This document shows, piece after piece, positions 10,362 to 60,880 of a DNA stretch of 64,000 nucleotides. The stretch is from Acorus gramineus (taxonomy: Eukaryota; Streptophyta; Magnoliopsida; Acorales; Acoraceae), in the NCBI GenBank assembly GCA_030737835.1, contig JAUJYN010000019.1, positions 890,433-954,432 on the forward strand, given 5' to 3'. A program made the position numbers and the translations under genes. The notes under the pieces were generated by a model. The model was not told where the DNA came from and searched no databases. It saw only the letters and a program-made list of their open reading frames with translations. Position 1 is the stretch's first letter; each line of letters begins with the position of its first letter.

Positions 10362-10953
10362 TGTTATAATTGTGTCACTTTTAACCTGCTGGTAACCGTT
10401 GGAGCGTTCTAGCAGTTTTTCATTTTTTTTTTTCGGTTTTCGATCAGAACCGCTAATTTTTGGACTGTTAGCTATCGTCCTGAGTTAGAGGACTCCGATT
10501 GGAAATCTAACTGCATATTTGGTGTCCTGGTACCATTTTAGGCCTCTCACAAAAATTTCATCGAATTCCGGTAACGTTTTCGAAATTTCACAGTTTCGGG
10601 GCGTATCCGGGTATTTTAAGTCGCTCGCTATATATAGGTGTGATCTAATTTCAAAATCACTATTCATCATCCCTACCATTTGGATTTTCTCTCTCCCCTC
10701 TCTCTTTTTCTCACTTTTGAGCCCCCTAGACCCCTCAAACCTAAAAACCTAAAGCATAGGAACTGTAGATCGGGTCCCGATCTACACCCCGGTGCTTTCA
10801 AATCCTGATTCCGGCGAGATTAGCCCCTCCGTCCCCCCTCTCTTCTCCTCTGTTTTGGACCATTTCGAGGGCCAAGATAGATCCGGGCGGTGGAAGCCTC
10901 TTGGGAGAGGTTTCGGTGCGCGGAGAGCAACCAGACTTCCCTTCTTCCCCTCG

Positions 10954-12056
10954 GTAAGCCCTCTTTCCCCTCTTTTATTGCATAGATGCTTGTTAGGAGG
11001 TCGGATTTGGGGTTGGGAGGCGGTGGGCGGCGAGGGGTGGCCGTCGGAGGGCGGTGGTGGTGGTCGGAGGCCTTGGGTTGGCCGGTGGTTGGTGGTGGGG
11101 GAGCTCGGGTAAGGGGGCTAGGCTGTCCGGGCAGGGTGTGGGGCAGCCCCGGGAGCGCTGGCAGCAGGCGCAGCAGCGTGGGGCACCAGGTGGCCGGGCG
11201 CGCGGGTGCGTGCGCGCAGGCGTGCGCTCGGGTGGTGCTGCAGGCGTGCTGGGCGTGCAAGGCGTGCAGGGTAGACTGGCAGGGCTAGCTTGGGTAGGAT
11301 GGCTGGGCTGTGCGCGCGGGCAGGCGGGGCTGGCAGGCTGGGCGCGTAGGCGAGCAGGGCAGAAGGTGCTCGGGCATCAGGCGAGCAGTGCCGGGCGTGC
11401 AGGCGAACGGTGCTCGGGCCACTCGGCGACGCGTGCAGGCAGGCAACGCGGGCAGCAGCGTGGGCATGCTGGCAGGCGCGCTGGGCGCGTGCTGCGCGTG
11501 CGTGCGCGTGGGCGCTGGGTGAGGGTCCCGGGTGCTGGGCGCTGAGCGCTGGGAGCTGGTCGCGGATACCGGGTGTGCTGGGCGAGGGTGCTGAGCGCTG
11601 GGCGCTGGGCACCGCAGTGGTGTATGCGCGCGGGGCGTTGGGTTGAGGCGCAGTCGTGCGCGCGGTGAGGAGGGTAGAGGCTGGTGGTGCGCGCGGGGTG
11701 CGCGCGGGCGAGGGGTGCGCGCGGGGTGCGCGCGGGGTGCTCGCGAGCCAGCGCGAGGCGTGCGGGGTGTGAACGGGAGGCTGCGCTGGGGCGCAGGGGG
11801 CGCGCGGTGCACCCGGGAGGTTCGGCGGTGCGCAGGGTGCGTTGGCTGAGGCGCGGCGGTGCACCCGGGCGGTCGGGCGGCCGTGCTGGTGGTTGCCGGC
11901 CCTGCGGGTGGTTGCCGGGGTGCTCGGGCTAGCGTGCGTGCGGGTCGTATGCACGTTTGCCTGAGTGTTGGATGTTTGTTTGTGGGTTTTGTGAATTTTG
12001 ATGTCTTTGGTAGTAGTTGTGGATTTTAACTCACCATATAAATGTCTGTCTTGCAG
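10954..12056 (+). other. Intron-like segment 1 of the solo A LTR
   Basis: Its borders are CTCG|GTAAGCC at 10954 and TGTCTTGCAG ending at 12056, with a pyrimidine-rich end and TAACTCAC upstream as a possible branch site. It holds the GC-rich alternating tract. The same borders recur in other copies: 47663-48889, 53974-55203 and, in type B, 59026-59638. Splicing is an inference from signal conservation only. Confidence 0.5.
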
Positions 12057-12092
12057 ATCCTGACGGGCGATCGCGCGACGACCCGAACTTCG

Positions 12093-13324
12093 GTGAGTGG
12101 GACAATCCAACCCAGTAGAGAGGGGTCATACGCATTTGGGCGTATACCGACCTCTCCTGGGGCACCATGGATGTATATTAACCGGCAGTAATATGTAATC
12201 CATGCTTGCATGATTTAAATGTAGAATGCATGCTACCCTAGGCTTTTATGTTAGGGACTTGCACCCATAGGATAGGTGTAAGAGCCATGCACCATGCCCC
12301 TGTTTTCATGTTAGGAACCTCGGCCTATGCATGCGTCCTACTAGTTTATTTATTAAATTAAATGCTAGTGTATGTTAAATCGCATGCCTTAGATAATATT
12401 ATAGGGAGGAGCCTTGCGAGGTCAACATTGAGACCCGTGTTAGGGTACTCCGTGTTCCTTGTTTGGTTGTCGGGATGTCCTGTATCAGGACCTCATGCTG
12501 CCCTCCCAAGGTTTCAAGTCCCGTTAATATTATAAGTAATGGTATGATTATTAGCATATTTAGTGAATATTATAGGGGAGGGGCCTTGCGAGGACAGCGG
12601 TGAGACCCGGGTTAGGGTACTCCGTGTTCCTTGTTTGGTTGTCGGGGTATCCTATATCGGGAACTCACGCCGCCCTCCCGAGTTCTTTCCCCCAATGATA
12701 TTACAACCTTGCTTTTATTGTACGTGTTCCCCGCATCTTGGTTATGCGCCCTGGAGGAACTCTGAAAAGTTCATGGCATTAGAGTTGTAGAGATATGTTG
12801 TCGGCGGATCCGAGTGGATCATATGCGTATGGATGGGCTGTTCTGTTTCCCTTCGTTGGATCCGTGTAGAGACTGCCCCAGCGTGATAAGGTCGTCCCTT
12901 CCGAGGGCTCCCATCAGTAGGCGCCTCCCGATATTTGTGACGGACTGCACTGAAGTTATGGGTGAAGGCCAGCGGCCTACGGAGTGGAGGAGAGACTATC
13001 GGTGGACCAAGGGTGACCAACAGCCTAGTCAGTCCCAATATCCTATGTCACCCGTGGTAGGGTGAGGGTGAGGGTGTAGTGGGTTGGCGATGAGCGACCT
13101 ACTGGATTTGTGATTGGATGATTATCAGTCCCAATAGCCTATGTCACCCATTGATGGGTGAGGGTGAGGGTGTGGTGGTTCGGCGAGGTACGAACCACTG
13201 AATTATGTTGTTATGTCACTTAGAGGCTGGATAATAATGGAATTGTGGTAAATATGGTCTGTGATGCATGGGTTGTGCTGTTCACTGAGCGTGTGGCTCA
13301 CCCCTCGCATATGTTTTTCCCCAG
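12093..13324 (+). other. Intron-like segment 2 of the solo A LTR
   Basis: It runs from TTCG|GTGAGTGGG at 12093 to TTTTTCCCCAG at 13324, and the donor fits the plant consensus closely. The 36-nt piece between segments 1 and 2 (12057-12092) is exactly 36 nt in A and B copies and in one C copy. The G-rich hairpin repeats lie within this segment. Confidence 0.5.
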
Positions 13325-13728
13325 TGGTCACTGAGCCTGAGCTGGAGCCGGAGCAGCAGTTGGAGCTTTCCGAGGGATTCCTTCAGTAGCAGAGCAGCGC
13401 CACGTTCCGCGAGTGCCAGAGGTTATCAGCATCCCTTCTTGACTGTATGTATTTGATTTCCGTGCTTGGCACGCGTTTGTATATATTCAGTTGTATTGGT
13501 GTATATTGGCTCTCACAGGACAGATGATTGAGTATCGAGTCTGTAGAATGTTTATTTAAAGATTCAGTCGTTTGCTTCCGCATTTGGTGTATATATCATG
13601 TCAGCCCCTTTGTTATCTGTGTGTCATTCTGGTTGTTTGTGTATGATATATTATTGACCTCCTGTGTAGATTCTGATATTTTATATACACTTGCCGTGTC
13701 CCGGGGACGGCCGCCCTGGGGCGTGACA

Positions 13729-26957: not shown

Positions 26958-29900
26958 TGTCACGCCCCGGGCGTCCCCGAGACGCGGCAAGTGTATATAA
27001 AATATCAGAATCTACACAGGAGGTCAATAATATATCATACACAAGCAACCAGAATGACACACAGACAATAAAAGCAGGGCTGACATGATATATACACCAA
27101 ATGCGGAAGCTAAGACTGAATCTGTAATTAAAACGCACTACAGACTCCATACATAATCACATGTCCTGTGAGAGCCAATATACATACAAAGACATCCAAA
27201 TATAACACAAAACGCGTGCCCAAGGGATGCTGATAGCCTCTGAAACTCGCGGGACGTGGCGCTACTCCGCTACTGATGAAGTCCCTCGGGGAGCTCCTCC
27301 TCCAGATCCGACTCAGATGACACTGAAGAAAAATATTGTGCGAGGGGTGAGCCACACGCTCAGTGAACGGCACAACCCATGCATCACAGACAATATTGAC
27401 CACAACCAGGAAATCCTTAACATCCACAATCTCATTACCAAAGCCACAAAAGATAACAATTCCGCAACCTAGTGGGTCACTACCGCAAACCCACTACACC
27501 CTCACTCTCACCCTCAATGGGTGACCAAGGATATTGGGACTAACTGCACAAAAACCAGCGGGTCGCTTCAGCCAACCCGCTACACCCTCACCCTCACCCT
27601 CAGGGGTGACCAAGGATATTGGGACTTACAATCCAGTGGGTCGCCACATCGCCGGCCCACCATACCCTCACCCTCACCCTCAACAGGTGACCTAGGTTCT
27701 TGGGACTGACTAGGCTGTTGGTCACCCTTGGTCCACCGATAGTCTCTCCTCACTCCGTAGGTCGTTTGGCCACTCCCACGTTTAGCACAGTCCTTCTACC
27801 AGACCAGGAGGCGCCTACTACTGGGAGCCCCTGCACGGGACAACCTGTCTAACGCTGAGGTAGTCTCTACACGGATCCAACGAAGGGAACAGAACAGCCT
27901 ATCCATCGCATATGATCCACTCGGATCCGCAGACAGCACATCATAACAACACTAATGTTCTGAATTCCTCAGAACCCACCGGGGCGCATAACTACGATGC
28001 GGGGAACATGCATAAGGTTATAACAAGGGTGGAATATCATTGGGGGAAAGAAACTCGGGAGGGCAGCGTGAGTTCCCGTTATAGGACACCCCGACAACCA
28101 AACAAGGAACACGGTGTACCCTAACCCGGGTCTCACCGCTGTCCTCGCAAGGCCCCTCCCCTATAATATTCACTATAACATGCAATTTAACATTTACTAG
28201 CATTTAATTTAATAAATAAACTAGTAGGGCACATGCATCGGTCGGGCTTCCTAGCATGGAAACAGGGGACATGGTGCACGGCTCATACACATATCCTAAG
28301 GGTGCAAGTCCCTAACATGCAAAGTCTAGGGTAACATGCATTCTACAATTAAATCATGCTCGCATGATATACACATTACAACATGTCAATATTCATCCCT
28401 GGTGCCCCAGGAGAGGTCAGTATACGCCCAAGTGCGTATAACAACTCTCTACTGGGTTGGATTATCCCACTCACCGAAATCCGGGTCGTCGCGCGACCGT
28501 CCGTCAAGATCTGCAAGACAGGCATTTATACGGTGAGTAAAATCCACAATTACCCCAAAATACCCAAAAATACATTAAACATACTCTAAAAATACCCCAT
28601 ACTCGGGCAAACGTACGCACGCTAGCCCGAGCACTCCGGCTCACTCCCGCACCACCGGCAACCACCCGCACGGCCACCCGACCCCTCGGGTGCGCCGCCG
28701 CGCCTCAGCCCGCGCGCCCAGGCGCCGCCGGGCCCCTGCCCGCCGCCCTGGACCCGCAGCCGAGCCACCCGGTGCACCGCGCCCACTGCGCCCCGCCGCA
28801 GCAGCCCGCGCGCACCCCGGCGCTCCCCGCGCACAATACGCGAGCACGCCGCACGCCCCGCGCGCACCCCGCGTGCACCACCAGCTCCGCCCCGCGCGCA
28901 TCCCGCGCGCACCGCCAGCTCCGCCTCGCGCGCACTCCCCCACACCGCGCGCACGCCTGCCTCTGCCCAGCGCTCCGCGCGCACGCCCCACAGCGGTGCC
29001 CAGCGCCCAGCGCCCAGCGCCCAGCACCCTCGGCCAGCACCCGGTACCAGCGACCCAGCGCCCAGCGCTCTGCGCCCAGCACCCGGGACCCTCACCCAGC
29101 GCCCACGCGCACGCACGCGCAACACGTGCCCAGCGCGCCTGCCAGCCTGCCCACGCTGCTACCCGCGTTGCCTACCTGCGCGCGTCGCCGAGTGGCCCGA
29201 GCACCGCTCGCCTGCACGCCCGGGGCACTGCCCGCCTGATACCCGAGCGCCCCTGCCCTGCTCGCCTCGCGCCCAGCCTGGTCGCCCGGCCTGCCAGCGC
29301 GCATAGCCCAGCTAGCCTACCCGCACGCATCTCCCTGCACCCCCCGAGCGCACGCCCGCGCGCGCACCCGCACGCACGCCCTCGCGCGCCCGACAAACTG
29401 GTGCACCTGCTCCCAGCCTACCCGAGCTAGCCCTGCCAGCCTGCCCAGCGCGCACGCCCAGCCCTGCTGGCCCCCAGCGCCAGCCGAGCGCCCGCACGCC
29501 CAGCCCTGCTGGCCCCCAACACCGCCCGAGCGCACGCACGCCCGCACGCCCGCGCTCACGCGCGCGCGCCCGCGCCAGCCACTGCGCCTGCACCACCCTG
29601 CGCTGCTGCCCTGCCCGAGACAGCAGCCTACCAGCCCGAGCTGCAAGCCTGCCAGCCCGAGCTCCTCTTCCACCCACCTCCGACCACCACCACAGCCTCC
29701 GACCACCTCCCACAGCCCCCCGACGGCCACCCACCGCCGCCAACCTCCACCCAACCCCATTTCCACCCTCCTAGCATACATCTAAGCAAGAAAGAGAGGA
29801 AAAAGAGGCTTACCAAGGGGAGGAAGGGAAATCCGGTTGCCCTCCACGCACCGAAACCTCTCCCAAAGGGCTTCCAACGCCTGGATCTACCTCCACCACC

Positions 29901-30389
29901 GAAATGGGCCAAAACAGAGGAGAAGAGAGGGCGGACGGAGGGGCAAAGCTCGCCGGAAAAGGGATTTGAAACCACCGGGGTGTAGATCGGGTTCCTAGGT
30001 TTTAACTTTTAAGCTTTGAGGGGTTTAAGGGGCTCAAAAGCAAGAAAAATGGAGGAGGGGAGAGAGAAAGCTTGGGGAGGAAGATGATGAATAGTGCCAA
30101 GCTATTTTTAGATTTCACTTTATATAGCAAGCGACTTAAAAACCCAGATACGCCCTGGAACTGCGAAATTTTGGAAACGTTACCGGAATTCAACAAAATT
30201 TTCGTGAGAGGCTTAAAATGGCACCAGGACACCAAATATGCAGTTAGATTTCCAATCGGAGTCCTCTAACTCAGGACGATAGCTAACAGTCCAAAAATTA
30301 GCGGTACCGATCGAAAACCGAAAAAAAATGAAAAATTGTCAGAACGCTCCAACGGTTACCCGCAGGCTAAAAGTGACACATATATAACA
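26958..30389 (-). mobile_element. Solo A-related LTR, minus strand, with target duplication
   Basis: A complete LTR of 3432 bp. On the minus strand it starts at 30389 with TGTTATATATGTGTCACTTTTAGCC and ends at 26958 with GGGGCGTGACA-type sequence. GTGAG occurs directly on both sides (26953-26957 and 30390-30394), a perfect 5-bp duplication. It contains the GC-rich tract (28610-29640), three G-rich hairpin units (27480-27690) and the usual splice-like signals in reverse. No internal region is present. The long minus-strand and plus-strand open frames across 28622-29430 are products of the GC-rich tract. Confidence 0.92.
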
Positions 30390-39085: not shown

Positions 39086-41295
39086 TGTTATGCCTGTGTC
39101 ATTTGGAGCCATTTCGGTTAAGCCTTGCTCACATTTGGGTCATTCAGGGCCTTTTAATTTTTCGATCGGAGTCGCTAAAATTTTGGCTTTTAGCCACCTG
39201 CGGGAGTTAAAGCACTCTGATTGGAAATCTAACTGCATATTATGGGTCCTGGTACCGTTTAGTACTACCCATAAAAATTTCATCGAATTCCGGTAACGTT
39301 TTGAAAAATATGCAGTTCCGAATCGCATACGGGTTTGGCCGTTACTGGGTTTCGGTGGGTGAGATATTTTCGAGTGTGTGGTGCTTCTCCGCACGCTTCC
39401 CAATAAAGCAAAAATAAGTGGTTGAGTGAGGGTGAGCCTAACCCTAACCTCACCACCCCCTTATGGTCACCCCAAAACACTATTTGGGCATGGAAATGAC
39501 CTTTTTGCCCTCTCTCTCTCTCCCCCTCTCTCCCAACCTTCTTGGATCTCTCTTTTCTCTCCCTCTCTTGGTCTCTTTTTCCCCTCTTTGTGTGTGTGGA
39601 GAAGGAGGAGGAAGAAGCAAAAGAAGGAGAAGGTGATGGAGGAAGAGCAAGAGGTGAGTTTTCTGTATGTGTTGTTGTTGTGGTTTCTCCTCTCTCAAGC
39701 TCCCTCTCATGTCTTCCCCCCCCCCCTGTTTTGCAGCCAAAGAAGGCTGAGGAGGGCTGTGGAGGTGGTGGTAGTGGTGGTGGTGGTTGAGGTGGTCGCG
39801 GGTGCATCGAGGGCCCCCGAATCTCCCCCTTTCATTCCCCCTCCCTAGGTGAGCTCTTCCCCTTCTTTTCTTGGTTTTTTCATGGCTTAGGGGTTGTGGG
39901 GAAGTCATGCATGCTAGGTAGTTGGTTTAGGGTGAGTGAGAAGTATGGGGGAGGGGTTAAAGGGGTTGAAAGGGTGCTGCGCGTGCGCGCGGGTCTGTCC
40001 GCCCGCGTGCGCGTGCAGAGGGGCCCTGGCAGGCGCAGGTGGGCGTGCGCGTGCGCGTGGGCGCGCGGGTGCCAACGGAGTGGGCGCGCGGGTGCGCACG
40101 GACGCTGGCAGCCAGCGGGGTGCGCGCAGGGCGTGTGCGCGCGCGGGGCAGTGCGTCTCGGCGTGCGCCTGGGCATGCAGCAGGGTGCCAGTGCGCGCGC
40201 GTGCGTGCGTGCGCGTGCTGGGGCATGCGCGGGGCTGCCCAGGGTCTCGGGTAGGTGCTGGGGCACTTGGGCATGCGTGCGTACTCGCGTGCTCGCATGC
40301 GTGCGAGCCCGTATGCGTGCATGTCTAAGTCTTAGGCATTTCTAGTAATTTCTAAGTGTTATAATGTGTTGTTACTCACCAAATTTAATTCCATTACTTG
40401 CAAATCTCGTCGGATGGGATGCGCGAGGTCCCGGGTTGAGGTGAGTGGTTTGATCCAATCCCCCCCCTCTCGAGATGCGCTCGACGCGCGTAGTCGTGCG
40501 TCGCGCATCGATGGGGCATCCTAGCTATACTACTTGTGTAGATAAGTAGTATGGCCATGCTTAAACTATAATATGTTAGATATCTTGCATGCTAGGCTTA
40601 TATTACATGTATTGTATCCATGTATGAATGATTGTGTTGCATGCGCCCCTCTAGTATGGGCATGTATTGCTGTAATGTGTATTGATGTATAGAATATGGC
40701 ATGCCTTAGGTAGTATTGTAATACTACTCCCACCATATTAATTGGAATATCCAGCATGATTAAGTCTGGGTTAATAACGGGCACCTACCTAATATTCCCT
40801 TGCGATAAGACTCGAGGGCGTGGTGTAGTTGTTGCGCCCATGCTAATGGGGCAAAGCTATGACCGACTTCATGAGATGATGATCTCTCTCGCCCTCTCCC
40901 TCTGCACGGACTGAGTAAGTAGATGCGATTTCCTACTCGACTCAGGTTCGTTTGGAATATTGGCATGCACCTGTTAGTGCGCGAGATCGCGCTTGACCCT
41001 TACCTTTTAAGTTGGTGATATCCAACGCATGCTTAAGTTAGGCCTTGTGTGCTTATGTGATTAATGACCATGTATGCATGTTGTATGATTTATTATGATG
41101 TAAATCTATGAGTAGGGAGTATCCCTATGATTAATTGATATGTGATCGTGCATATGGTTCATGCACATAACTAAGATTAAATTCTCCTATAAAATATATG
41201 TGCATGTTAAAACTGATAGGCCTATTTGAAATAGGCGTGGGTATGACCTGTTGTCAGGTTGCACCTTATTAGTTAGAGCACTAGCGATGTAATCG
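39086..41295 (+). mobile_element. Type D LTR, 5' part
   Basis: It starts TGTTATGCCTGTGTCATTTGGAGCC at 39086. It has the CT-rich leader (39508-39600), a CCCTGTTTTGCAG acceptor-like site near 39736, the GGTGG-rich exon-like piece, the GGTGAGCTC site near 39849, a GC-rich tract (39975-40325) and a damaged acceptor (CTTGCAA) near 40400. It is cut at 41295 by a type C LTR. Sequence resembling its continuation reappears at 45788-47087. Confidence 0.83.
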
Positions 41296-47087: not shown

Positions 47088-47351
47088 TGTTATATTTGTG
47101 TCACTTTTAACCTGCTGGTAACCGTTGGAGCGTTCTATCAGTTTTTCAATTTTTTTTCGATTTTCGATCGGAACCGCTAATTTTTGGACTGTTAGCTATC
47201 GTCCTGAGTTAGAGGACTCCGATTGGAAATCTAACTGCATATTTGGTGTCCTGGCGCCATTTTAGGCCTCTCACGAAAATTTCATCGAATTCTGGCAACG
47301 TTTCCGAAATTTCACAGTTCCGGGGCGTATCTGGGTTTTTAAGTCGCTCGC

Positions 47352-47360
47352 TATATAAAT
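47352..47360 (+). promoter_or_regulatory. TATA box of the type A LTR
   Basis: TATATAAAT lies 265 bp into the LTR, upstream of a CT-rich leader. The same box is at 53662-53670 in the 3' LTR, and a variant TATATATAG at 10629-10637 in the solo LTR. It is the likely promoter core for element transcription. Confidence 0.65.
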
Positions 47361-48889
47361 GGAATCTAATTTTTGGTTGACCACTATTCATCATCCCTAC
47401 CATTTGGTTTTCTCTCTCCCCTCTCTCCTTTTCTCACTTTTGAGTCCCCTAGACCCCTCAAACCTAAAAACCTAAAGCATAGGACCCGATCTACACCCCG
47501 GTGCTTTCAAATCCGGATTCCGGCGAGATTTGCCCCTCCGTCCCCCCTCTCTTCTCCTCTGTTTTGGACCATTTCGAGGGCCAAGATAGATCCGGGTGGT
47601 GGAAGCCCTTGGGGAAAGGTTTCGGTGCGCGGAGAGCATCCGGACTTCTCTTCCTCCCCTTGGTAAGCCCTATTTCCCCTCTTTTATTGCATAGATGCTT
47701 GTTGGGAGGTCGGATTTGGGGTTGGGAGGCGGTGGGCGGCGGTGGGTGGCCGTCGGAGGGCTGTGGTGGTGGTCGGAGGCCTTGGGGTGGTCGGTGTTGG
47801 TGGTAGAGGAGCTCGGGTAGGGAGCTAGGCTGTCCGGGCAGGGTGTTGGGCAGCCCCGGGAGGTTTGGCAGCAGGCGCAGCAGGTGGGCGCACCAGGTGG
47901 CCGGGCGCGCGGGTGTGTGCGCGCAGGCGTGCGCGCGGCGTGCGCTCGGGTGGTGCTGCAGGCGTGCTGGGCGTGCAGGGCAGGGTAGACTGGGTAGGAC
48001 TAGCTCGGGTAGGCTGGGAGCAGGTGCACCAGTTTGCCGGGCGCGCGCGCGGGGGGTGCAGGGGGAGGTGTGCGGAGCGGAATGGCTGCGGGTTGTGCGA
48101 GCAGGGCAGGCCGGCTGGGCAGGCCATGCTCGGGCAACTGGCAGGGGGTGCTCGGGCATCAGGCGGGCAGTGGCTGGGCGTGCAAGGCGAGCGGTGCTCG
48201 GGCCACTCGGCGACATGCGCAGGCAGGCAGCGCGGGCAGCAGCGCGCGCAGGCTGGCAGGCGCGCTGGGGGCGTGCTGCCAGGCGCGCTGGGTGCGTGCT
48301 GCGCGGGCGTGCGCGTGGGCGCTGGGTGAGGGTCCCGGGTGCTGGGCGTTGAGCGTCGGGTGCTGCCGCGGATACCGGGCGCTGGGCTGAGGCGCAGGCG
48401 TGCGCGCGGTACAGTGGGTGGGAGCGGGCGGTGCGCGCGTGGTGCGCGCGGGTAGAGGCTGGTAGGTGCGCGCGGATAGGGGGCTGGAGGTGCGCGCAGG
48501 GTGCGGCGGGGCGAGACGCTGCGCGCGGGGCTTGCGGGGTGCTCGCGGGCCAGCGCGAGGAGTGCGGGGTGTGCGCGGGCGGCTGCGCTGGGGCGCAGAG
48601 GGGCGCGCGGTGCACCTGGGAGTTTCGGCGGTGTGTCCAGGCGGCGGGCAGGGGCCCGGCGGTGCGCTTGGGTGCGGGGGCGGTGGCGCGGCGACGCATC
48701 CGGGGGTGGGTGGCCGTGCGGGTGGTTGCTGGGGTGCGGGAGTGAGTCGGGGTGCTCGGGCTAGCGTGCGTGCGGGTCGTATGCACGTTTTCCCGAGTGT
48801 TGGGTGTTTGCTTGAGGGTTTTGTGTATTTTTGAAGTCTTTGGTAGTAGTTGTGGATTTTAACTCACCGTATAAATGTCTGTCTTGCAG

Positions 48890-48925
48890 ATCTTGGCGGG
48901 CGGTCGCGCGACGACCCGAACTTCG
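48890..48925 (+). other. 36-nt mini-exon-like segment in the A LTR
   Basis: It is bounded by TGTCTTGCAG on the left and GGTGAGTGGG on the right. Counterparts of exactly 36 nt lie at 12057-12092, 55204-55239, 59639-59674 (type B) and 19097-19132 (type C). The neighbouring gaps vary from about 0.6 to 1.2 kb. Confidence 0.5.
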
Positions 48926-50574
48926 GTGAGTGGGACAATCCAACCCAGTAGAGAGGGGTCATACGCATTTGGGCATATACCGACCTCTCCTGGGGCACCA
49001 TGGATGTATATTAACCAGCAGTAATATGTAATCCTTGCATGATTTAAATGTAGAATGCATGCTACCCTAGTCCTTGTATGTTAGGGACCTGCACCCATAG
49101 GATAGGTGTAAGAGCCATGCACCATGCCCCCTGTTTTCATGTTAGGAAACCTCGGCCTATGCATGCGTCCTACTAGTTTATTTATTAAATTAAATGCTAG
49201 TGTATGTTAAACGCATGCCTTAGATAATATTATAGGGAGGAGCCTTGCGAGGTCAACATTGAGACTCGTCTTAGGGTACTCCGTGTTCCTTGTTTGGTTG
49301 TCGGGATGTCCTGTATCGGGACCTCATGCTGCCCTCCCAAGGTTTCTAGTCCCATTAATATTATAAGTAATGTTATATAACTGGTATGATTATTAGCATA
49401 TTTAGTGAATATTATAGGGGAGGGGCCTTGCGAGGACAGCGGTGAGACCCGGGTTAGGGTACTCCATGTTCCTTGTTTGGTTGTCGAGGTGTCCTATATC
49501 GGGAACTCACGCCGCCCTCCCGAGTTCTTTCCCCCAATGATAGTACAACCTTGCTTTTATTATACACATTCCCCGCATCTTGGTTATGCGCCCTGGAGGA
49601 ACTCTGAAGAGTTCATGGCATTAGAGTTGTAGAGATGTGTTGTCGGCAGATCTGAGTGGATCATATGCGTATGGATAGGCTGTTCTGTTTCCCTTTGTTG
49701 GATCCGTGTAGAGACTGCCCCAGCGTGATAAGGTCGTCCCTTTCGAGGGCTCCCATCAGTAGGCGCCTTCCGATATTTGTGACGGACTGTGCTGAAGTTA
49801 TGGGTGAAGGCCAGCGGCCTACGGAGTGGAGGAGAGACTATCGGTGGACCAAGGGTGACCAACAGCCTAGTCAGTCCCAAAATCCTATGTCACCCGTGGT
49901 AGGGTGAGGGTGAGGGTGTAGTGGGTTGGCGATGAGCGACCTACTGGATTTGTGATTGGATGATTATTAGTCCCAATAGCCTATGTCACCCATTGATGGG
50001 TGAGGGTGAGGGTGTGGTGGTTCGGCGAGGTACGAACCACTGGATTATGTTGTTATGTCACTTAGAGGATGGATAAATAATGGAATTGTGGTAAATATTG
50101 TCTGTGATGCATGGGTTGTGCTGTTCACTGAGCGTGTGGCTCACCCCTCGCATATGTTTTTCCCCAGTGGTCACTGAGCCTGAGCTAGAGCCGGAGCAGC
50201 AGTTGGAGCTTTCCGAGGGATTCCTTCAGTAGCGGAGCAGCGCCACGTTCCGCGAGTACCAGAGGTTATCAGCATCCCTTCTTGACTGTATGTATTTTAT
50301 TTCCGTGCTTGGCACGTGTCAGTATATATTCAGTTGTATTTGTATATATTGGCTCTCACAGGACAGATGATTGTGTATCGAGTCTGTAGAATGTTTATTT
50401 ACAGATTCAGTCTTTTGCTTCCGCATTTGGTGTATATATCATGTCAGCCCCTTTGTTGTCTGTGTGTCATTCTGGTTGTTTGTGTATGATATATTATTGA
50501 CCTCCTGTGTAGATTCTGATATTTTATATACACTTGCCGCGTCCCGGGGACGGCCGCCCTGGGGCGTGACAAAG

Positions 50575-50588
50575 TTGGTATCAGAGCC
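50575..50588 (+). other. Primer-binding site for initiator tRNA-Met
   Basis: TTGGTATCAGAGCC lies four bases after the 5' LTR end, an intact match to the 3' end of plant tRNA-iMet. Confidence 0.92.
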
Positions 50589-50689
50589 TGGTCCTGTCAG
50601 AGCCAATAGTCCTCCTTTCGTAGAGATGAGTCCTAGGATTTCTATATGAGTATTCTGATCCTAGTGTCTGGTTTTCTTAGGGTGCTGAT

Positions 50690-52054
50690 ATGCCTCCTCG
50701 CAGAGGACGGCGCGGACGAGGTCCCTCTCGGTCTTTGGAGGTTTCCGGACCTACCAGAGACGAGGATGCTACCGGAGAGCCCTTGACGCAGGAGCCTCCT
50801 GCTTGGGAGCGTGCTTTCGCTCGGTTGGCTGATTTGGTGGAGACACAGACGCGGATGTTGGCAGAGCAGGCTAGAGAGATTCAGGAGCTGCGGGCGACCC
50901 GCGAGGCAGTTCCGCAGGTCCCCTTGGTGGCAGATCCGCCTGTGGTACCCGATGTACCCCCAGTTCCAGTGGCGATTTCGGCGGTAGGAGTCCAGGGTCC
51001 CCTGCAGAGGGAGGAGGAGCTAGAGGCGGCAGCGCGAGTGCAGCAGAGCGGCCTCAACGCCTTTCTGAAGCTCCACCCTCCCGAGTTCCATGGGCAGACG
51101 GCAGATCCTCTTGCGCCAGAGCGTTGGTTGAGGGAGGTGGATACGATCTTCGTGGCCATGCTTTGCACTGATCGCCAGCGAGTCCCCCTGGCCACCTTTA
51201 TGCTGAAGGGTAACGCCGCCGACTGGTGGGCTACCCGAGTGGTGGACATCCCAGAGGGAGTGGAGCAGCTTTCTTGGGCAGGATTTCAGAGGTATTTCTT
51301 GGAGGAGTACTTCCCGTTCTCGACGCGCCAGATCGTGATGCAGGAGTTTGAGCAGTTGACGCAGGGCTCCATGTCGGTTGCTAACTACTCTACGCGGTTT
51401 ACGAGGCTGTCCAGATTTGCTCCGGCCTTGGTGATGGACGAGGAGATGAGGTGCCATCGATTTGAGCTCGATCTCAGCAGTGCCATCCGGGTGCACGTCA
51501 CCGCCCACGCTTTCACGAGGTACTCCGACTTAGTGTCTCGAGCGAAGACCGTCGAGAGAGACCTCGGGATCCAGGTGAGGGCTCCGACCCCTTCTGCAGA
51601 ACAGGGTCCTTCCGGGAGTCGGGACCAGGGGCAGCGCAAGAGGAAGAGGCCCCGCTTCGATCAGTCAGCGGCTGCCTCTCCTCCAGCTGATGCGGTGCCA
51701 GGGTGGGATCCAGCACCCATTGCAGCAGTGCCCATCCAGTCCATGCAGCCGAAGAAGCGGCGCTGTTTTCATTGTCAGCGCATCGGGCATATCAGATACC
51801 ATTGCCCTGATGCTGGCCGACCCCGAGTGCCACCTCAGCAGCCGCAATTCTTGCAACAGCAGCTTTCGCGCCAGCAGCAGCAGCAGCCTCAGCGTCAGCA
51901 GCAGCCAGTGCAGCCGGCGAGGCGTGCTCCTGCTCCTCAGCCGCGGTTGGTCCAGGGCAGAGTTGCAGCGCTTACGGCCGAGGAGGCGCAGCTTTCGGGT
52001 ATCATGGTTCGAGGTATTATCTTGTGTTCTCAACTCTCCAGTAATAGGATATAA
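50690..52054 (+). pseudogene. gag: Tekay-type gag, truncated before the protease
   Basis: Capsid polyprotein starting at ATG 50690 (MPPRRGRRGRG). The gag domain lies at about residues 110-250 (PLAPERWLREVDTIF, DWWATRVVDIPEG, FLEEYFPFSTRQIV), the CCHC knuckle (CFHCQRIGHIRYHC) at about residue 362, and a Gln-rich linker follows. The heptad stretch near residue 55 is about ten residues shorter than in the other copies (QTRMLAEQAREIQEL). The frame is open up to the fusion point near 52036, where a foreign LTR-like piece begins and supplies a chance stop at 52052. The protease is lost. It is the least damaged gag here and could still be translated as a capsid-like protein. Confidence 0.9.
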
Positions 52055-52790
52055 TTGTGGGTGTGTGTTTGGTTGCTGTTATGCAAGTGTGTGGGGTATC
52101 TGGATGAGTGAGTATCAAGAGTGGTTGTTTGAGTTAAGGAAGCCGGGTTGTAGCCGTCCTGGTAGAGAGTTCCCATCAGTAGGTACCACCGATGCAGTCG
52201 GAGGGGTACTGAACCTGGGAGTATACCAGGTAGGGGCTAACCCGGAAGGAGATTATTGAATGGTGCCGCGAGCGTGGAATCGCTCTCCCCTTCGTCGGAT
52301 CCGCGTAGTACAGCCCCGGCGTTAGACAGGCTCCCGGTCAGAGGACCAGGCGAGCTACGGAGCGGGGAGAGGCTACCGGTGGACCAGGGGTAGAGAGCAG
52401 TCTAAGTCTCTCCCAAAGTCCCAAAATGTCTCCTTTCGGGAGTGAGGGTGTGGATGAGGCGAAGGCGGGTCGCTCGTGACCCCATTTTTGTTGGACCGTT
52501 CCCAATGATGTTGGGTCCGGTCTTGAAAGGATGTTGAATGACATCGTTGGGTGATCATCTAGAGGTAGATGATCCGGAGGAGTTAGTAGTGTTCTTTAAA
52601 ATGATGTCTTCTTCCAGTGTTCCTTTCTGGATTAAGGGGCCTTGTGAGGTCGGCGTTGGAACCCGGGCTAGGGTACTTCGTGTTCCTTGTTTGGTTGTTG
52701 GGGTATCCTATATCGGGATTTCATGGTGCCCTCCCGAGGTTTCTTTTCCCAGGTAAGGGATGCCATGGAAGCATCAGATAGATGAGAAAT
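52037..52790 (+). mobile_element. LTR-derived filler between gag and pol remnants
   Basis: This resembles the middle of C/D and A LTRs: GTCCTGGTAGAGAGTTCCCATC, GTAGGTACCACCGATGC, GGAGTATACCAGGTAG, GGACCAGGGGTAGAGAG, then the A-type GGGGCCTTGTGAGGTC and GTTCCTTGTTTGGTTG. It replaces roughly the protease and most of reverse transcriptase. Its order of motifs does not match a single LTR copy elsewhere in the window. Confidence 0.7.
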
Positions 52791-53126
52791 CAAGTGCGAG
52801 TTTTGGTTAGAGGTTAAGGCCTTTTGGGCTGGGTGATTTCTAGTGAAGGCATATCTGTGGACCCGGGTAAGACGCTTGCTATGTCGAATTGGCGTAGGCC
52901 ATCGAACCCCGCAAGGATTCAGAGCTTCCCAAGTTTGGTGGGTTATTGTAGGAAGCTTGACGAGGGACTCTCGAAGATAGCTGTTCCTCTTAACCGCCTT
53001 ACTCGGAAGGATGTCCGGTTCGAGTGGTCCCCGTCTTGCGAGGAGAGCTTCCTGGAGTTTTATCGGAGGCTCACCTCAGCGCCAATTCTTACCTCTCCGT
53101 CTTGGAGTGGTGGGTTCGCAGTTGGG
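52791..53126 (+). pseudogene. pol (RT): Tekay reverse transcriptase/RNase H scrap
   Basis: Short remnant beginning with CEFWLE, then [40 protein letters not shown] and RRLTSAPILT. It matches the C-terminal reverse transcriptase and RNase H boundary of the copy at 63530-63830. The active-site part is absent. It joins directly to the integrase C-terminus at about 53127, so most of RNase H and the integrase core are deleted. Confidence 0.87.
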
Positions 53127-53360
53127 TAAAGGTGCGTCCGCGATCCTGCTCACGTCATCCCGTTCGAGCCGCTCGTCTCTGAGCCCGATTCGTCATTCGT
53201 GGAGCAGTCGATTGAGATCATGGACCGCCGCGTGAGGAGGCTCTGCACCAAGACCGTCCAGTTGGTCGAGGTGCGATGGCAGCACCGTTCCGGTGTCGAG
53301 GACACTTGGGAGCTCAAGGATGCCAGGTGTGACGCGTATCCGCATCTTTTCCCCTCCTAG
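53127..53360 (+). pseudogene. pol (CHD): Integrase C-terminus with chromodomain, Tekay type
   Basis: It opens RCVRDPAHVIPFEPL, the usual entry to the chromovirus integrase tail, then IEIMDRRVRRLCTKTVQLVE, VRWQHRSGVEDTWE and YPHLFPS before TAG at 53358-53360. These are the beta strands and the TWE motif of a chromodomain, which in chromoviruses guides integration to heterochromatin. The frame is open but has lost its start and the integrase catalytic core. The chromodomain, with the reverse transcriptase signature at 63077-63700, places these elements in the Tekay/Del chromovirus clade. Confidence 0.88.
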
Positions 53361-53393
53361 ATGTTTTTGCATATTTTGAGGACAAAATTTCCT

Positions 53394-53406
53394 AAGGGGG
53401 GAAGAA
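53394..53406 (+). other. Polypurine tract
   Basis: AAGGGGGGAAGAA lies immediately before the TG of the 3' LTR and would prime plus-strand DNA synthesis. It is intact. Confidence 0.87.
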
Positions 53407-56400
53407 TGTTATATATGTGTCACTTTTAACCTGCTGGTAACCGTTGGAGCGTTCTGGCAGTTTTTCATTTTTTTCGATCGGAACCGCTAATTTTTGGACT
53501 GTTAGCTATCGTCCTGAGTTAGAGGACTCCGATTGGAAATCTAACTGCATATTTGGTGTCCTGGTGCCATTTTAGGCCTCTCACGAAAATTTCATCGAAT
53601 TCCGGTAACGTTTCCGAAATTTCACAGTTCCGGGGCGTATCTGGGTTTTTAAGTCGCTCGCTATATAAATGGAATCTAATTTTGGTTGACCACTATTCAT
53701 CATCCCTACCATTTTCATTTTCTCTCTCCCCTCTCTCCTTTTCTCACTTTTGAGCCCCCTAGACTCCTCAAACCCAAAAACCTAAAGCATAGGAACCCGA
53801 TCTACACCCCGGTGCTTTCAAATCCCGATTCCGGCGAGATTAGCCCCTCCGTCCCCCCTCTCTTCTCCTCTGTTTTGGACCGTTTCGAGGGCCAAGATAG
53901 ATCCGGGTGGTGGAAGCCCTTGGGGAAAGGTTTTGGTGCGCGGAGAGCATCCGGACTTCTCTTCCTCTCCTTGGTAAGCCCTCTTTCCCCTCTTTTATTG
54001 CATAGATGCTTGTTAGGAGGTCGGATTTGGGGTTGGGAGGCGGTCGGCGGCGGTGGGTGGCCGTCGGAGGGCAGTGGTGGTGGTCGGAGGCCTTGGGGTG
54101 GCCGGTGGTTGGTGGTGGAGGAGCTCGGGCAGGGTGGCTGGGCTGTCCGGGCAGGGTGCTGGGCAGTCCCAGGAGTGCTGGCAGCAGGCGCAGCAGGTGG
54201 GCGCACCAGGTGGCCGGGCGCGCGGGTGCGTGCGCGCAGGCGTGCGCGCGGCGTGCGCTCGGGTGGTGCTGCAGGCGTGCTGGGCGTGCAGGGCGTGCAG
54301 GGTAGACTGGGTAGGACTAGCTCGGGTAGGCTGGGAGCAGGTGCACTAGTTTGCCGGGCGCGCGACCGCGTGCGGGCGGGGGGTGCAGGGGGAGGTGTGC
54401 GTAGCGGAATGGCTGCAGGTTGTGCGAGCAGGGCAGGCCGGCTGGGCAGGCCATGCTCGGGCAGCTGGCAGGGGGTGCTCGGGCATCAGGCGGGCAGTGG
54501 CTGGGTGTGCAGGGCGAGCGGTGCTCGAGCCACTCGGCGACGCGCGCAGGCAGGCACCGCGGGCAGCAGCGCGCGCAGGCTGGAAGGCGCGCTGGGCGCG
54601 TGCTGCCAGGCGGGCTGGGTGCGTGCTGCGCGGGCGTGCGCGTGGGTGCTGGGTGAGGGTCCCGGGTGCTGGGCGCTGAGCGTCGGGTGCTGGGCCTCGG
54701 ATACCGGCGCTGGGCTGAGGCGCAGGCGTGCGCGCGGTACAGTGGTGCGCGCGGGTAGAGACTGGTAGGTGCGCGCGGAGTGTGCGCGGATAGGGGGCTG
54801 GAGGTGCGCGCGGGGTGCGCGCTGGGCGAGACGCTGCGCGCGGGGCGTGCGGGGTGCTCGCGGGCCAGCGCGAGGCGTGCGGGGTGTGCGCGGGCGGTTG
54901 CGCTGGGGCGCAGGGGGGCACGCGGTGCACCCGGGAGTTTCGGCGGCGTGTCCAGGTGGCGGGCAGGGGCCCGGCGGTGCGCTTGGGTGCACGGGCGGTG
55001 GCGCGGCGGCCATCCGGGGGTGGGTGGCCGTGCGGTGGTTGCCGGGGGTGCGGGAGTGTGTCGGGGTGCTCGGGCTAGCGTGCGTGCGGGTCGTATGCAC
55101 GTTTGCCCGAGTGTTGGGTGTTTGCTTGAGGGTTTTGTGTATTTTTGATGTCTTTGGTAGTAGTTGTGGATTTTAACTCACCGTATAAATACCTGTCTTG
55201 CAGATCTTGGCGAGCGGTCGCGCGACGACCCGGATTCCGGTGAGTGGGACAATCCAACCCAGTAGAGAGGCGTTATACGCACTTGGGCGTATACCGACCT
55301 CTCCTGGGGTGCCATGGATGTATATTAACCTGCAATAATATGTAATTCATGCTTGCATGATTTAAATGTAGAATGCATGCTACCCTAGTCTTTGCATATT
55401 AGGGACTTGCACCCTTAGGATAGGTGTAAGAGCCATGCACCATGCCCCCTGTTTTCATGATAGGAAACCTCGGCCTATGCATGCATCCTACTAGTTTATT
55501 TATTAAATTAAATGCTAGTGTATGTTAAATCGCATGCCTTAGATAATATTATAGGGAGGAGCCTTGCGAGGTCAACATTGAGACCCGTGTTAGGGTACTC
55601 CGTGTTCCTTGTTTGGTTGTCGGGATGTCCTGTATCGGGACCTCATGCTGCCCTCCCAAGGTTTCTAGTCCCATTGATATTATAAGTAATGTTATATAAC
55701 TGGTATGATTATTAGCAATTCTAGTGAATATTATAGGGGAGGGGCCTTGCGAGGACAGCGGTGAGACCCGGGTTAGGGTACTCCATGTTCCTTGTTTGGT
55801 TGTCGGGGTATCCTATATCGGGAACTCACGCCGCCCTCCCGAGCTTTCTTTCCCCCAATGATATTCAAACCTTGCTTTTATTATACATGTTTCCCCGCAT
55901 CTTGGTTATGCGCCCTGGAGGAACTCTGAAGAGTTCATGGCATTTGAGTTGTAGAGATGTGTTGTCGGCGGATCCGAGTGGATCATATGCGTATGGATAG
56001 GCTGTTCTGTTTCCCTTTGTTGGATCCGTGTAGAGACTGCCCCAGCGTGATAAGGTCGTCCCTTTCGAGGGCTCCCATCAGTAGGCGCCTCCCGATATTT
56101 GTGACGGACTGTGCTGAAGTTATGGGTGAAGGCCAGCGGCCTACGGAGTGGAGGAGAGACTATCGGTGGACCAAGGGTGACCAACAGCCTAGTCAGTCCC
56201 AAAATCCTATGTCACCCGTGGTAGGGTGAGGGTGAGGGTGAGGGTGTAGTGGGTTGGCGATGAGCGACCTACTGGATTTGTGATTGGATGATTATCAGTC
56301 CCAATAGCCTATGTCACCCATTGATGGGTGAGGGTGAGGGTGTTGTGGTGATTCGGCGAGGTACGAACCACTGGATTATGTTGTTATGCCACTTAGAGGA

Positions 56401-56902
56401 TGGATAAATAATGGAATTGTGGTAAATATTGTCTGTGATGCATGGGTTGTGCTGTTCACTGAGCGTGTGGCTCACCCCTCGCATATGTTTTTCCCCAGTG
56501 GTCACTGAGCCTGAGCTAGAGCCGGAGCAGCAGTTGGAGCTTTCCGAGGGATTCCTTCAGTAGCGGAGCAGCGCCACGTTCCGCGAGTACCAGAGGTTAT
56601 CAGCATCCCTTCTTGACTGTATGTATTTTATTTCCGTGCTTGGCACGCATTTGTATATATTCAGTTGTATTTGTATATATTGGCTCTCACAGGACAGATG
56701 ATTGAGTATCGAGTCTGTAGTATGTTTATTTACAGATTCAGTCTTTTGCTTCCGCATTTGGTGTATATATCATGTCAGCCCTTTTGTTGCCTGTGTGTCA
56801 TTCTGATTGTTTGTGTATGATATATTATTGACCTCCTGTGTAGATTCTGATATTTTATATACACTTGCCGCGTCCCGGGGACGGCCGCCCTGGGGCGTGA
56901 CA
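53407..56902 (+). mobile_element. 3' LTR (type A) of the internally deleted Tekay element
   Basis: The LTR is 3496 bp, from TGTTATATATGTGTCAC to GGGGCGTGACA, and very similar to the 5' LTR at 47088. TATA box at 53662-53670; GC-rich tract 54120-55100; splice-like borders at 53974, 55203 and 55240; G-rich hairpin units at 56204-56370. It is followed by another primer site and a gag start, so it also acts as the 5' LTR of a second, truncated internal region. The 360-residue open frame across 53686-54768 runs through the GC tract and is not a gene. Confidence 0.94.
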
Positions 56903-56907
56903 AGAAG

Positions 56908-56921
56908 TTGGTATTAGAGCC
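56908..56921 (+). other. Second primer-binding site, after the 3' LTR
   Basis: TTGGTATTAGAGCC follows the 3' LTR with one C-to-T change. A primer site here means that an internal region once continued beyond the LTR. Confidence 0.87.
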
Positions 56922-57022
56922 TGGTCCTGTCAGAGCCAATAGTCCTCCTTTCGTAGAGATGAGTCCTAGGATTTCTATATGAGTATTCAGATCCTAGTGT
57001 CTGGTTTTCTTAGGGTGCTGAT

Positions 57023-57168
57023 ATACCTCCTCGCAGAGGACGGCGCGGACGAGGTCCCTCTCGGTCTTTGAAGGTTTCCGGACCTACCAGAGACGAGGAT
57101 GCTACCGGAGAGCCCTTGACGCAGGAGCCTCCTGCTTGGCAGCGTGCTTTCGCTCGGTTGGCTGATAT
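57023..57168 (+). pseudogene. gag: Tekay gag stub, start codon lost
   Basis: It corresponds to the first 49 or so codons of the gag at 50690, nearly identical (PPRRGRRGRGPSRSL, DEDATGEPLTQEPPAW). The start is ATA instead of ATG. It breaks after RLADI at about 57168 and is followed by an inverted LTR piece. It shows an LTR-internal-LTR-internal arrangement. Confidence 0.88.
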
Positions 57169-58244: not shown

Positions 58245-58492
58245 TGTTATATATGTGTCACTTTTAGCTTTCTGGGAACCTTTGGGAGATTTCTGGCAGT
58301 TTTTCAACGTTTTCTTTTTTCGATCGGAACAGCTAAAATTTTGGAATTTTAGCTATCATCATGAGCTTGAGAACTCCAATTGAAAATCTAACTGCACATT
58401 ATGTGTCCTGGTGCCATTTCAAACCACTCACGAAAATTTCATCGAATTCCGATAACGTTCAGAATTTGGCAGTTCTGAATCGTATCCGGGTT

Positions 58493-58619
58493 TTGACCGA
58501 GCGGGAATGTCAAAGGGGGACTTGACCAAGTCAAAGAGGACTTTGACCAAGTCAAGTTTGACCATTGACTTGGTCAAATGGTTTTGTTTGTTTGTGTGGT
58601 TGGGTTGACTCAAAGTCAA
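58493..58619 (+). promoter_or_regulatory. Dense W-box cluster in U3 of the type B LTR
   Basis: Ten TTGACY hexamers occur in 127 bp: plus strand at 58493, 58522, 58543, 58558, 58565 and 58605; minus strand at 58529, 58550, 58572 and 58614. TTGACC/TTGACT is the binding site of WRKY transcription factors. The cluster recurs in the two other B copies (about 4310-4430 and 34205-34330). Control by WRKY factors is an inference. Confidence 0.65.
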
Positions 58620-58636
58620 ACACCAAAAAGTGCCCT

Positions 58637-58638
<2 letters not shown>

Positions 58639-58679
<41 letters not shown>
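58639..58679 (+). repeat. GT dinucleotide microsatellite
   Basis: About 20 uninterrupted GT units lie within the type B LTR. The other two B copies have shorter, interrupted AC runs on the opposite strand (4241-4286, 34141-34167). Confidence 0.95.
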
Positions 58680-58680
<1 letters not shown>

Positions 58681-60880
58681 CCTAACATGGGCGTCCCCCT
58701 TCTTCTTTCCTCTTCTCATCTTCTCTCACACACAAAAAATCAAAAAAATCCATCTCTCCCTTCCCTTTGTTTGCTCCATTAGAGGTAGTAGGAGAAGAAG
58801 AAAGGGAAAACCCTAGAAGGGAAAAAGAGTGGTAAGGGCTTGATCTACCTTTCCATGGTTTTTGTTTGGTTTTCCCCTTTGTTGACCTCCCTCTCATGGC
58901 TTCTCCTCCCCCCTGTTTTCAGCCATTGAAGGGCTGAGAGTGGCTGAGGTGGTGGTGGTCTTGGTGGTGGCGATTTGGTGCGCGTAGGGCACCCGAGTTC
59001 CCTCCCTTTTTCTTCCTCTCCTTGGGTAAGTCCTTCTCCTCCCTATGCTTGTTTAGATGCTTGTTTATGGTGTGATTGGGTATGCATGGTATGCATGGGT
59101 GTTGGGGGGGGGGGGGTGGGAGGGCTGAGGAGGGGGTGGAAGGGACTCGGGCGCGTATGCAGAGTCATCCGCGCGCGTTCGCGCGCGTATGCACTCACAA
59201 GCAGGCGCTGGAGCACGCAGACGGGGGCGCTGGCGAGAGCGCGCACGTACACGCAGGCGCACGGGCGTGCACGCAGGGTGCTGCACAGGCGCGTAGTGCG
59301 CGTGGGTACGTGCTGGCTGGGCACGCGGTGCACGCAGGTGCGCGGGAGCTTGCGCGCGCGCGGCAGCGCGTCTGGGAGCGCCGGCAGGGGCGCGGTAGTG
59401 CGCCTGGGGCGTAGGGGAACGTGCGGGCATGCGCATTCGTGCGTGCGCGTGCGGGGGGCCATGCGTATGGCTGCCCGAGGGTTCGGGAGGGTGTCGGGGC
59501 ACTCGGACTCGCGTGCGTACGCGCGTGCTCGCATGTGTGCGGGTTCGCATGCATGCTTGTCCGAGTATTGGGTATTTCTAGTAAATTTCTTATGTAATGT
59601 GTAGTTTACTCACCATATTGAATGCCCATGTCTTGCAGATCTTGACGGACGGTCACGCGACGACCCGGGTTTCGGTGAGTGGGACAATCCAACCCAGTAG
59701 GGAGGCGTTCGATGCACGTAGGCGTGCATTGCCCTCCCCTGGGGCACCATAATTGCGTATTAACTTGTAATAAATGTAAAGCTATGCATGCATGATTAAT
59801 ATGATGTATCCATGCCACCTTAGACTTGTATGCTAGGGATATGCACCCATATATCATGTATAGAGGCCTATGCATGCCTAGACACCATGCCCCGAACTAT
59901 GTATGTTCCCATCTAGTTTAATCTAATTAAATAAAAATGAGAGCATATAGTTACAAGCATGCCTTAGAGAATATTATAACCTCGTTGTTATAATATATGT
60001 TTCCCCGCATCTTAGTTATGCGCCCTGGAGGAATTCTGGAGAATTCATGACATTATTAGCGTTACAAATCGGTGTCGACGGATCCAAGAGGATCGTATCC
60101 GTGTGAGTAGGCTGTCTTCTCCTTTTGGTTGGATCCGATGTAGGGACTCCCCGGCGTTGGCTGACCTGACAGAGGGCTCCCGTCCGTAGGTACCTCCGAT
60201 GCGTCGGACAGTACTGATAGTGGGAGTATACCAGGTGGAGGCTACGGAGTGTGGGAGAGGCTACCGGGTGGACCAGGGGTGGAGAGCGGTCTAGTATGCC
60301 CCAAGAGGCCCATGTCACCCCCAGAAAGGGTGAGGGTGAGGGGGGAGGTGGGTTGGCGATGAAACGACCCACTAGAATGTGTAGTTGCTCCCGTTTTGGG
60401 ACTATAAATTATTTAAGGTTAATATGAATTGTGATGCATGGGTTGTGCTATTCACTGAGCGTGTGGCTCACCCCTCGCATATTCTTTTCCTCCAGTTATA
60501 TCTGAGTCGGATCTGAAGGAGGAGCTCCCCGAGGCACCACAGCAGTAGCGGAGCAGCGTCACGTTCTGCGAGTGAGAGGCCATCAGCATCCCCTTTTGAT
60601 TGTATGTATTGTTATCCGTGCTTGGGCACACACTTGTATTTGGATGTCATTGTGTATATTGGCTCTCACAGGACAGTTGATTATGTATCGGGTCTGTAAT
60701 ATGTCTTTGAATTACAGACTCAGTCGTTTAAGCTTCCGCTATTTGTATATATTATGTCAGCTACCTTATTGTCTGTGTTGTCATTTTTGTTTAGAGTATT
60801 TTATTGATCTCCTGTATAGACTGCTGATATTATATATATTTGCCACGTATCGGGGACGGCCGCCCTGGGCGTGACAAAAG

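Follow-up and report, generated by a model that had tools for sequence, protein, structure and literature searches.

Plant long terminal repeat (LTR) retrotransposons are described as generally intron-less, with few exceptions (PMC12786077). Ogre, BARE1, EVADE, Bagy-2, and CRR are described as spliced, either within or between their coding regions or in the service of env (PMC3735527, PMC12786077, PMC6317226). Here, we describe a family of LTR retrotransposons in Acorus gramineus whose leader, the part of the LTR transcript that lies upstream of gag, appears to carry introns of its own. The family is represented by LTR types A to E in a stretch of 64,000 nt (contig JAUJYN010000019.1, positions 890,433 to 954,432 of the forward strand, assembly GCA_030737835.1), which we call the window and which is part of a 398.6-Mb assembly of 137 contigs.

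In retroviruses, the major splice donor lies in the leader before gag, with a packaging signal nearby, and unspliced RNA is translated into Gag. The Acorus leader resembles them in having a donor in the R-U5 region, where sequence past the donor could mark unspliced genome RNA, but differs in that the RNA proposed to serve gag is the spliced form.

Closer at hand are the plant elements. Ogre (Ty3/gypsy, Tat lineage) is likewise a plant Ty3/gypsy element with an intron that is spliced from some of its transcripts, but it is a gag-pro/pol intron, whereas those considered here are found ahead of gag, within the LTR leader (PMC6317226). In BARE1 (Ty1/copia), splicing of a gag intron helps to part translation RNA from genome RNA; DNA copies of the spliced RNA reportedly cannot be amplified from barley DNA, whereas copies lacking intron 1 exist here (PMC3735527). 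In EVADE (Ty1/copia), alternative splicing yields a short GAG messenger RNA (mRNA) and favors Gag translation, but the splice takes out the protease domain within the coding region and not a part of the leader (PMC12786077). Unlike the introns of BARE1 and EVADE, which are inside the gag-pol coding region, ours are upstream of the gag ATG; others were not sought. A literature search over titles and the starts of abstracts, in which few subscription papers were covered, returned no report of an LTR leader with introns ahead of gag, a result that does not prove their absence.

Intron 1 and the genomic copies that lack it

The original prediction listed six splice-like motifs in a fixed order in the type A LTR at 47088-50571 (copy A2), and all six are at the coordinates it gave. 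We refer to them in order as donor 1, acceptor 2, donor 3, acceptor 4, donor 5, and border 6; the exons and introns that they delimit are collected in Table 1, where a slash marks a border. The start of the RNA is taken as ~47385, an assumption that extends to the 5' end of exon 1.

The evidence for intron 1 comes from genomic copies that have lost it. A pattern spanning the exon 1/exon 2 junction, searched with up to three mismatches, has 33 genomic matches without intron 1, joined exactly at the predicted borders, and its reversed control has none. Fifteen of these matches are free of mismatches, five have one, nine have two, and four have three; 29/33 are within two. Five of the 33 join TTGG/ATC, which is consistent with the type D donor TTGG/GTAAGT, and the two of these that were fetched (L082 and L083) are D-like. 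In the first ten places fetched, the exact join is followed by GTGAGTGG after exon 2 in every case. All 17 sites read have the join, and 16 have an intact GTGAGTGG, the other (L091) being one base short.

Copies of this kind are not confined to one LTR type: A-, B-, C-, and D-like sequences are all among those fetched. In a comparison over 220 nt of the 11 junction pieces that are distinct, the nearest relative was an intron-containing copy for six, another junction piece for four, and a tie between the two for one, and the best matches were spread across A-, B-, C-, and D-like sequences. Because the best match of a junction piece is so often an intron-containing copy, the loss appears to have happened several times. 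The 33 matches amount to ~0.4% of the 9117 genomic matches (4512 + 4605; reversed control 0) to the exon 2/donor 3 site, with both counts limited by the pattern used. The exon 2/donor 3 pattern has no exact match in the outside collections genome_contigs and viral_contigs.

Whole elements tell more than single joins. The C2 element (~7692637-7700072) has the exact join in both LTRs, is flanked by a 5-bp target duplication (ACCAT), and retains a primer binding site (PBS) and a gag start; its LTRs differ at 54 of 2301 aligned bases (97.7% identity), and the 3' LTR is without a recognizable donor 5. The C78 element, read at its ends and joins only, also has the join in both LTRs, with flanks that share TTATG and 442/444 aligned bases alike around the join. 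On C54, C59, and C65, paired junction matches lie 5-7.5 kb apart with the join at both places and pair identities of 94.8, 96.8, and 93.8% over ~440 nt, although that each pair belongs to one element is not proven. Two intron-less LTRs in one element point to the reverse transcription of spliced RNA, because a DNA deletion would affect one LTR.

The GT...AG borders and a branch-like site of intron 1 are kept while neighboring sequence diverges, with donor 1 present in types A, C, and D. Intron 1 is almost certainly a real spliceosomal intron, and is about as well shown as DNA alone permits.

Proposed introns 2 and 3 and the competing readings

That divergent LTR types keep the same order of borders is borne out: borders 2-6 recur in types A to E while the sequence between them differs, with exceptions at donor 5, which reads TT instead of GT in one type E copy and is deleted in a type C copy (C1m). 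Border 1 is found in A, C, and D (TTGG/GTAAGTCC near 59025); the window's B copy begins downstream of it, and it was not located in the type E copies of the window. Exon 2 is found at 13 window places, and the lengths originally predicted (36 nt in A, B, and one C copy, 37-39 nt in two others) hold in substance but not in detail: nine copies have 36 nt, three have 37, and one has 39. The acceptor is broken (CAA) in one of the 13, at 40404+, and lost in a further copy near 42650, which is outside that count.

Around exon 2, nine copies of types A to E (leaving aside the E copies with broken acceptors, at 40404+ and ~42650, and the near-duplicates A1, A3, and D2m) share invariant runs of at least four bases only at the branch-site-like CTCAC, the acceptor TGCAG/ATCT, and the donor G/GTGA, with 54/155 ungapped columns invariant. 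Around exon 3, eight copies (leaving aside C1m, A1, A3, and any E copy that lacks this part) have as invariant signals AG at border 4, TATGTATT at donor 5, and TCTCACAGGACA at border 6; this zone is less telling than exon 2, as its 140/284 invariant ungapped columns include other blocks. The AG of acceptor 4 is kept amid changing bases (TCCCCAG, TCTTCAG, TCTCTAG, CCTCCAG, TTTTCAG), and a branch-like CTCAC lies ~25 nt upstream, as at acceptor 2. The signals are also nearly invariant in 53 distinct pieces for the exon 2 zone, 62 for exon 3 to border 6, and 13 for the gag acceptor, most of which come from closely similar A and D copies and carry little independent weight. Splice-site scoring, which is not decisive by itself, ranks the acceptors 2, 7, 8, and 9 among the 215 AGs of A2.

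The distribution of ATGs bears on where the last splice would end. Between 47385 and the start codon of gag, 53 ATGs occur in A2; six of them lie in 50362-50681 and the others as given in Table 1. Over nine LTR copies, exons 1-3 total a single ATG, whereas each intron 1 has 5-14 and each intron 2 has 31-45. This count omits L033, L034, L035, L040, and the second L036 start, which have incomplete borders, and the end of exon 3 in C1m was set by a flanking motif, donor 5 being lost. Splicing to 50362, as in the original prediction, would leave six upstream ATGs in A2; with the acceptor GTTTTCTTAG/G, which ends at 50680, 9 nt before the gag ATG, gag becomes the first AUG. The further acceptor is favored for this reason, and we consider it somewhat more likely than 50362 as the end of intron 3. 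Types A, B, and D have it in common; in one copy of type E, the AG ahead of GTTGCTGAC-ATG persists though the preceding bases differ.

Among the acceptors of the A2 leader, TTTATTTACAG/A at 50405 scores best; TTACAGA is invariant there in eight copies of types A to E, and the CTCAC within border 6 could serve it as a branch site. As heritably used acceptors, neither 50362 nor 50405 is supported, as patterns made from types A and D, which miss most B and C copies, found no junction places for either.

On these signals, intron 2 is likely to be real, and intron 3, in one form or the other, is rather more plausible than not. Several observations weigh against leader splicing as a whole and should be kept in mind. 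The evidence is read from DNA, and intron 1 itself, at 72% GC and 18% T, is unlike the U-rich introns described for plants (PMC3735527). Donors rank only 5, 14, and 23 among the 278 GTs of A2, and the long conserved blocks at border 6 and past donor 3 are larger than splice signals require. A pattern covering types A to D, but not E, finds no genomic place that joins exon 2 to exon 3, and patterns of types A and D, which miss most B and C copies, find none that joins exon 3 to 50362, 50405, or the gag acceptor. That last acceptor does not stand out either, as the stretch from the PBS to gag is highly conserved throughout in A, B, and D. Placing ATG-free exons of these lengths at random in A2 gives a P of no less than ~0.02, and depletion in a single copy is not decisive. 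Exons 2 and 3 of type E hold ATGs, though a PBS and a gag start are present in one E copy, whose gag frame hits a stop immediately. The missing junctions may mean that introns 2 and 3 are not introns, or that RNA lacking them cannot be copied; the latter comes naturally with the gag acceptor, because splicing to it would remove the PBS, and is possible for intron 2 should that intron carry a packaging signal.

Could intron 1 be the only intron? It is a rather unlikely arrangement, in which the downstream blocks would serve dimerization or packaging, strand transfer, or 3' end formation, and gag would be translated from intron-2-containing RNA via reinitiation, shunting, or a later promoter. 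It accords well with 33 intron-less places for intron 1 against none for the other junctions tried, and with conserved blocks that reach past the splice signals, namely GGGACAATCCAACCCAGTAG, directly after donor 3 in nearly all A to D copies aligned, and TTGGCTCTCACAGGACA at border 6. It leaves without explanation, however, the kept AG of acceptor 4 with its CTCAC upstream, and would have gag translated behind the 31-45 ATGs that intron 2 holds in each of nine copies. Another view, in which DNA deletion or gene conversion rather than splicing took intron 1 out, is very improbable. The end of exon 1 and the 3' end of intron 1 do have CTTG in common, which is a possible guide for deletion, and gene conversion may spread a join once it exists. 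A CTTG-guided deletion would, however, retain CAG at the join, and a control search for this pattern found no place with up to two mismatches (joins at other offsets were not searched); its nine matches all have three mismatches and all resemble ordinary intron ends. Neither the identical, precise join in A- to D-like copies nor the two duplication-flanked elements without the intron in both LTRs would be expected of deletion.

Coding is the remaining rival for the small exons. The original prediction suggested that the mini-exon and exon 3 of A and B could encode a short acidic tail, which would be the end of a small LTR protein, and the joined exons can indeed be read to a common TAG in A, B, and D, with a 12-nt length difference that stays in frame. 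The variable columns, however, are spread roughly evenly over codon positions: exon 2, with 12 columns per position, has 3, 4, and 6 of them, and exon 3 has 8/21, 8/22, and 9/22. Exon 1 of A2 is without an ATG and has stops in that frame, and exon 3 of type E is without the shared TAG. We have given up the coding tail as scarcely tenable.

Anatomy of the window and lineage of the family

Between the first two LTRs of the A element (50572-53403), gag is the sole separate frame of at least 200 amino acids, and the element seems to be non-autonomous, with gag alone. The junction matches on C2, like those on C78, are ~5.1 kb apart, which would fit similarly short internal parts. The third type A LTR is followed by a further PBS and gag start (53404-57033), with ATA as the gag start codon there; the arrangement suggests an LTR-internal-LTR-internal tandem made by recombination. 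The minus-strand solo type C LTR sits within intron 2 of a plus-strand type C LTR (~24700-31164). Parts of intron 2 (49226-49534) match a stretch behind gag (52635-52751). Immediately ahead of the A LTR, the sequence at 46700-46999 matches 52153-52575, also behind gag, as well as numerous further places in the window.

Exon 1 of type D contains a well-scoring donor, GTG/GTAAGG, and an acceptor, CTGTTTTCAG (58832-58921), with a similar pair near 39650-39745. We do not accept this as a proven extra intron: a pattern made from the D copy at 58245 found no junction places, and the corresponding upstream part of L082 and L083 (equivalent to 58842-59025) still holds most of it.

Behind the type D LTR at 58245, there are gag pieces, a reverse transcriptase, an H2C2 integrase zinc-binding domain, and a weak rve core; the order gag, RT-RNase H, integrase is thus present, assigned by position to this type D element. 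The integrase C-terminus gives weak chromodomain matches (PF00385, E 0.002, 18.4 bits vs a cut-off of 25.1; chromo domain protein 1 in PDB, E 0.027). The PBS, TGGTATCAGAGC, which we take to be of the initiator Met tRNA type, follows the LTR, as expected for Tekay/Del, a lineage of which this type of PBS is typical. From these domains and the PBS, the family is probably Ty3/gypsy, chromovirus-like, of the Tekay/Del lineage.

Table 1. Features of the LTR leader and related copies in the window
Feature	Position	Strand	Remarks
Type A LTR, 5' LTR of gag-only element	47088..50571	+	starts TGTTAT, ends GTGACA; PBS 4 nt beyond; homology to other copies
TATA-like box TATATAAA	47352..47359	+	aligned TATATA in A1, A2, A3, C1m
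Exon 1	47385..47662	+	0 ATG; 5' end assumed
Intron 1, TTG/GTAAGC ... TCTTGCAG/ATC, 72% GC	47663..48889	+	6 ATGs; cleanly absent at 33 genomic places
Exon 2, 36-nt mini-exon	48890..48925	+	0 ATG; motif positions, acceptor-to-donor pattern
Proposed intron 2, G/GTGAGTGG ... GCTCACCCCTCGCAT...CCCCAG	48926..50167	+	40 ATGs; conserved signals
Proposed exon 3	50168..50287	+	0 ATG
Proposed intron 3, short form, ACT/GTATGT ... CTCTCACAG	50288..50361	+	1 ATG; conserved signals
Proposed intron 3, long form, ends GTTTTCTTAG before gag	50288..50680	+	takes out LTR end and PBS; acceptor kept in 13 distinct pieces
PBS TGGTATCAGAGC	50576..50587	+	taken as initiator Met tRNA type
gag open reading frame, ATG at 50690	50690..52054	+	Pfam Retrotrans_gag, E 1.3e-16
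Second type A LTR	10362..13728	+	every border present; motif positions, ATG table
Third type A LTR	53404..56902	+	every border present; motif positions, ATG table
Type C solo LTR	26958..30389	-	borders 1-4 and 6; donor 5 deleted; target duplication GTGAG
Type D LTR	58245..60876	+	borders 1-6; possible extra intron inside exon 1 (58832-58921)
Exon 2, 36 nt, 9 places	544+, 12057+, 19097+, 26085+, 48890+, 55204+, 59639+, 33204-, 28510-		acceptor-to-donor pattern
Exon 2, 37 nt, 3 places	5309+, 40404+, 17406-		acceptor-to-donor pattern
Exon 2, 39 nt, 1 place	22052+		acceptor-to-donor pattern

A proposed splicing switch and what it would mean

Taken together, the observations make it quite probable that the LTR leader is spliced upstream of gag, with intron 1 shown indirectly, through the 33 precise intron-less places and the two elements with target duplications, and introns 2 and 3 drawn from conserved signals. 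To this extent, the spliced leader of the original prediction stands, most firmly in its first intron. Transcription would start near the TATA box of the LTR, and the leader would probably carry spliceosomal introns upstream of gag. Intron 1, on the indirect evidence of the DNA, is cut out precisely, and RNA lacking it has been reverse-transcribed and integrated repeatedly. Introns 2 and 3 would also be removed in gag mRNA, the last splice running most simply to the acceptor before the gag ATG. In A2, full splicing would leave none of the 53 upstream ATGs, and the AUG of gag would come first.

Fully spliced RNA, its PBS gone, could presumably only be translated, and the genome would be RNA that keeps intron 2 and the PBS, with or without intron 1. 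The earlier idea that unspliced RNA serves as genome needs amending, as RNA without intron 1 is copied too; with the patterns tried, heritable loss was found for neither intron 2 nor intron 3. Intron 2 may carry a packaging signal, for which the GGGACAATCCAACCCAGTAG shared after donor 3 is a candidate. A tentative extension, which we put forward as possible and no more, is that splicing is a one-way switch, in which full splicing to the gag acceptor would take away the PBS and every upstream AUG and so commit an RNA to translation, while a signal in intron 2 would be needed for packaging, so that only RNA with intron 2 would ever return to DNA.

In a 399-Mb genome, a family that counts its exon 2 sites in thousands seems to carry a true intron inside its LTR. 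Because the LTR is rebuilt from RNA in each replication cycle, both LTRs of an element record the splicing of the RNA that was copied. The genome becomes a natural log of splicing choices, in which the split of one transcript between translation and replication can be counted, and LTRs of this kind could donate splice sites to host genes.
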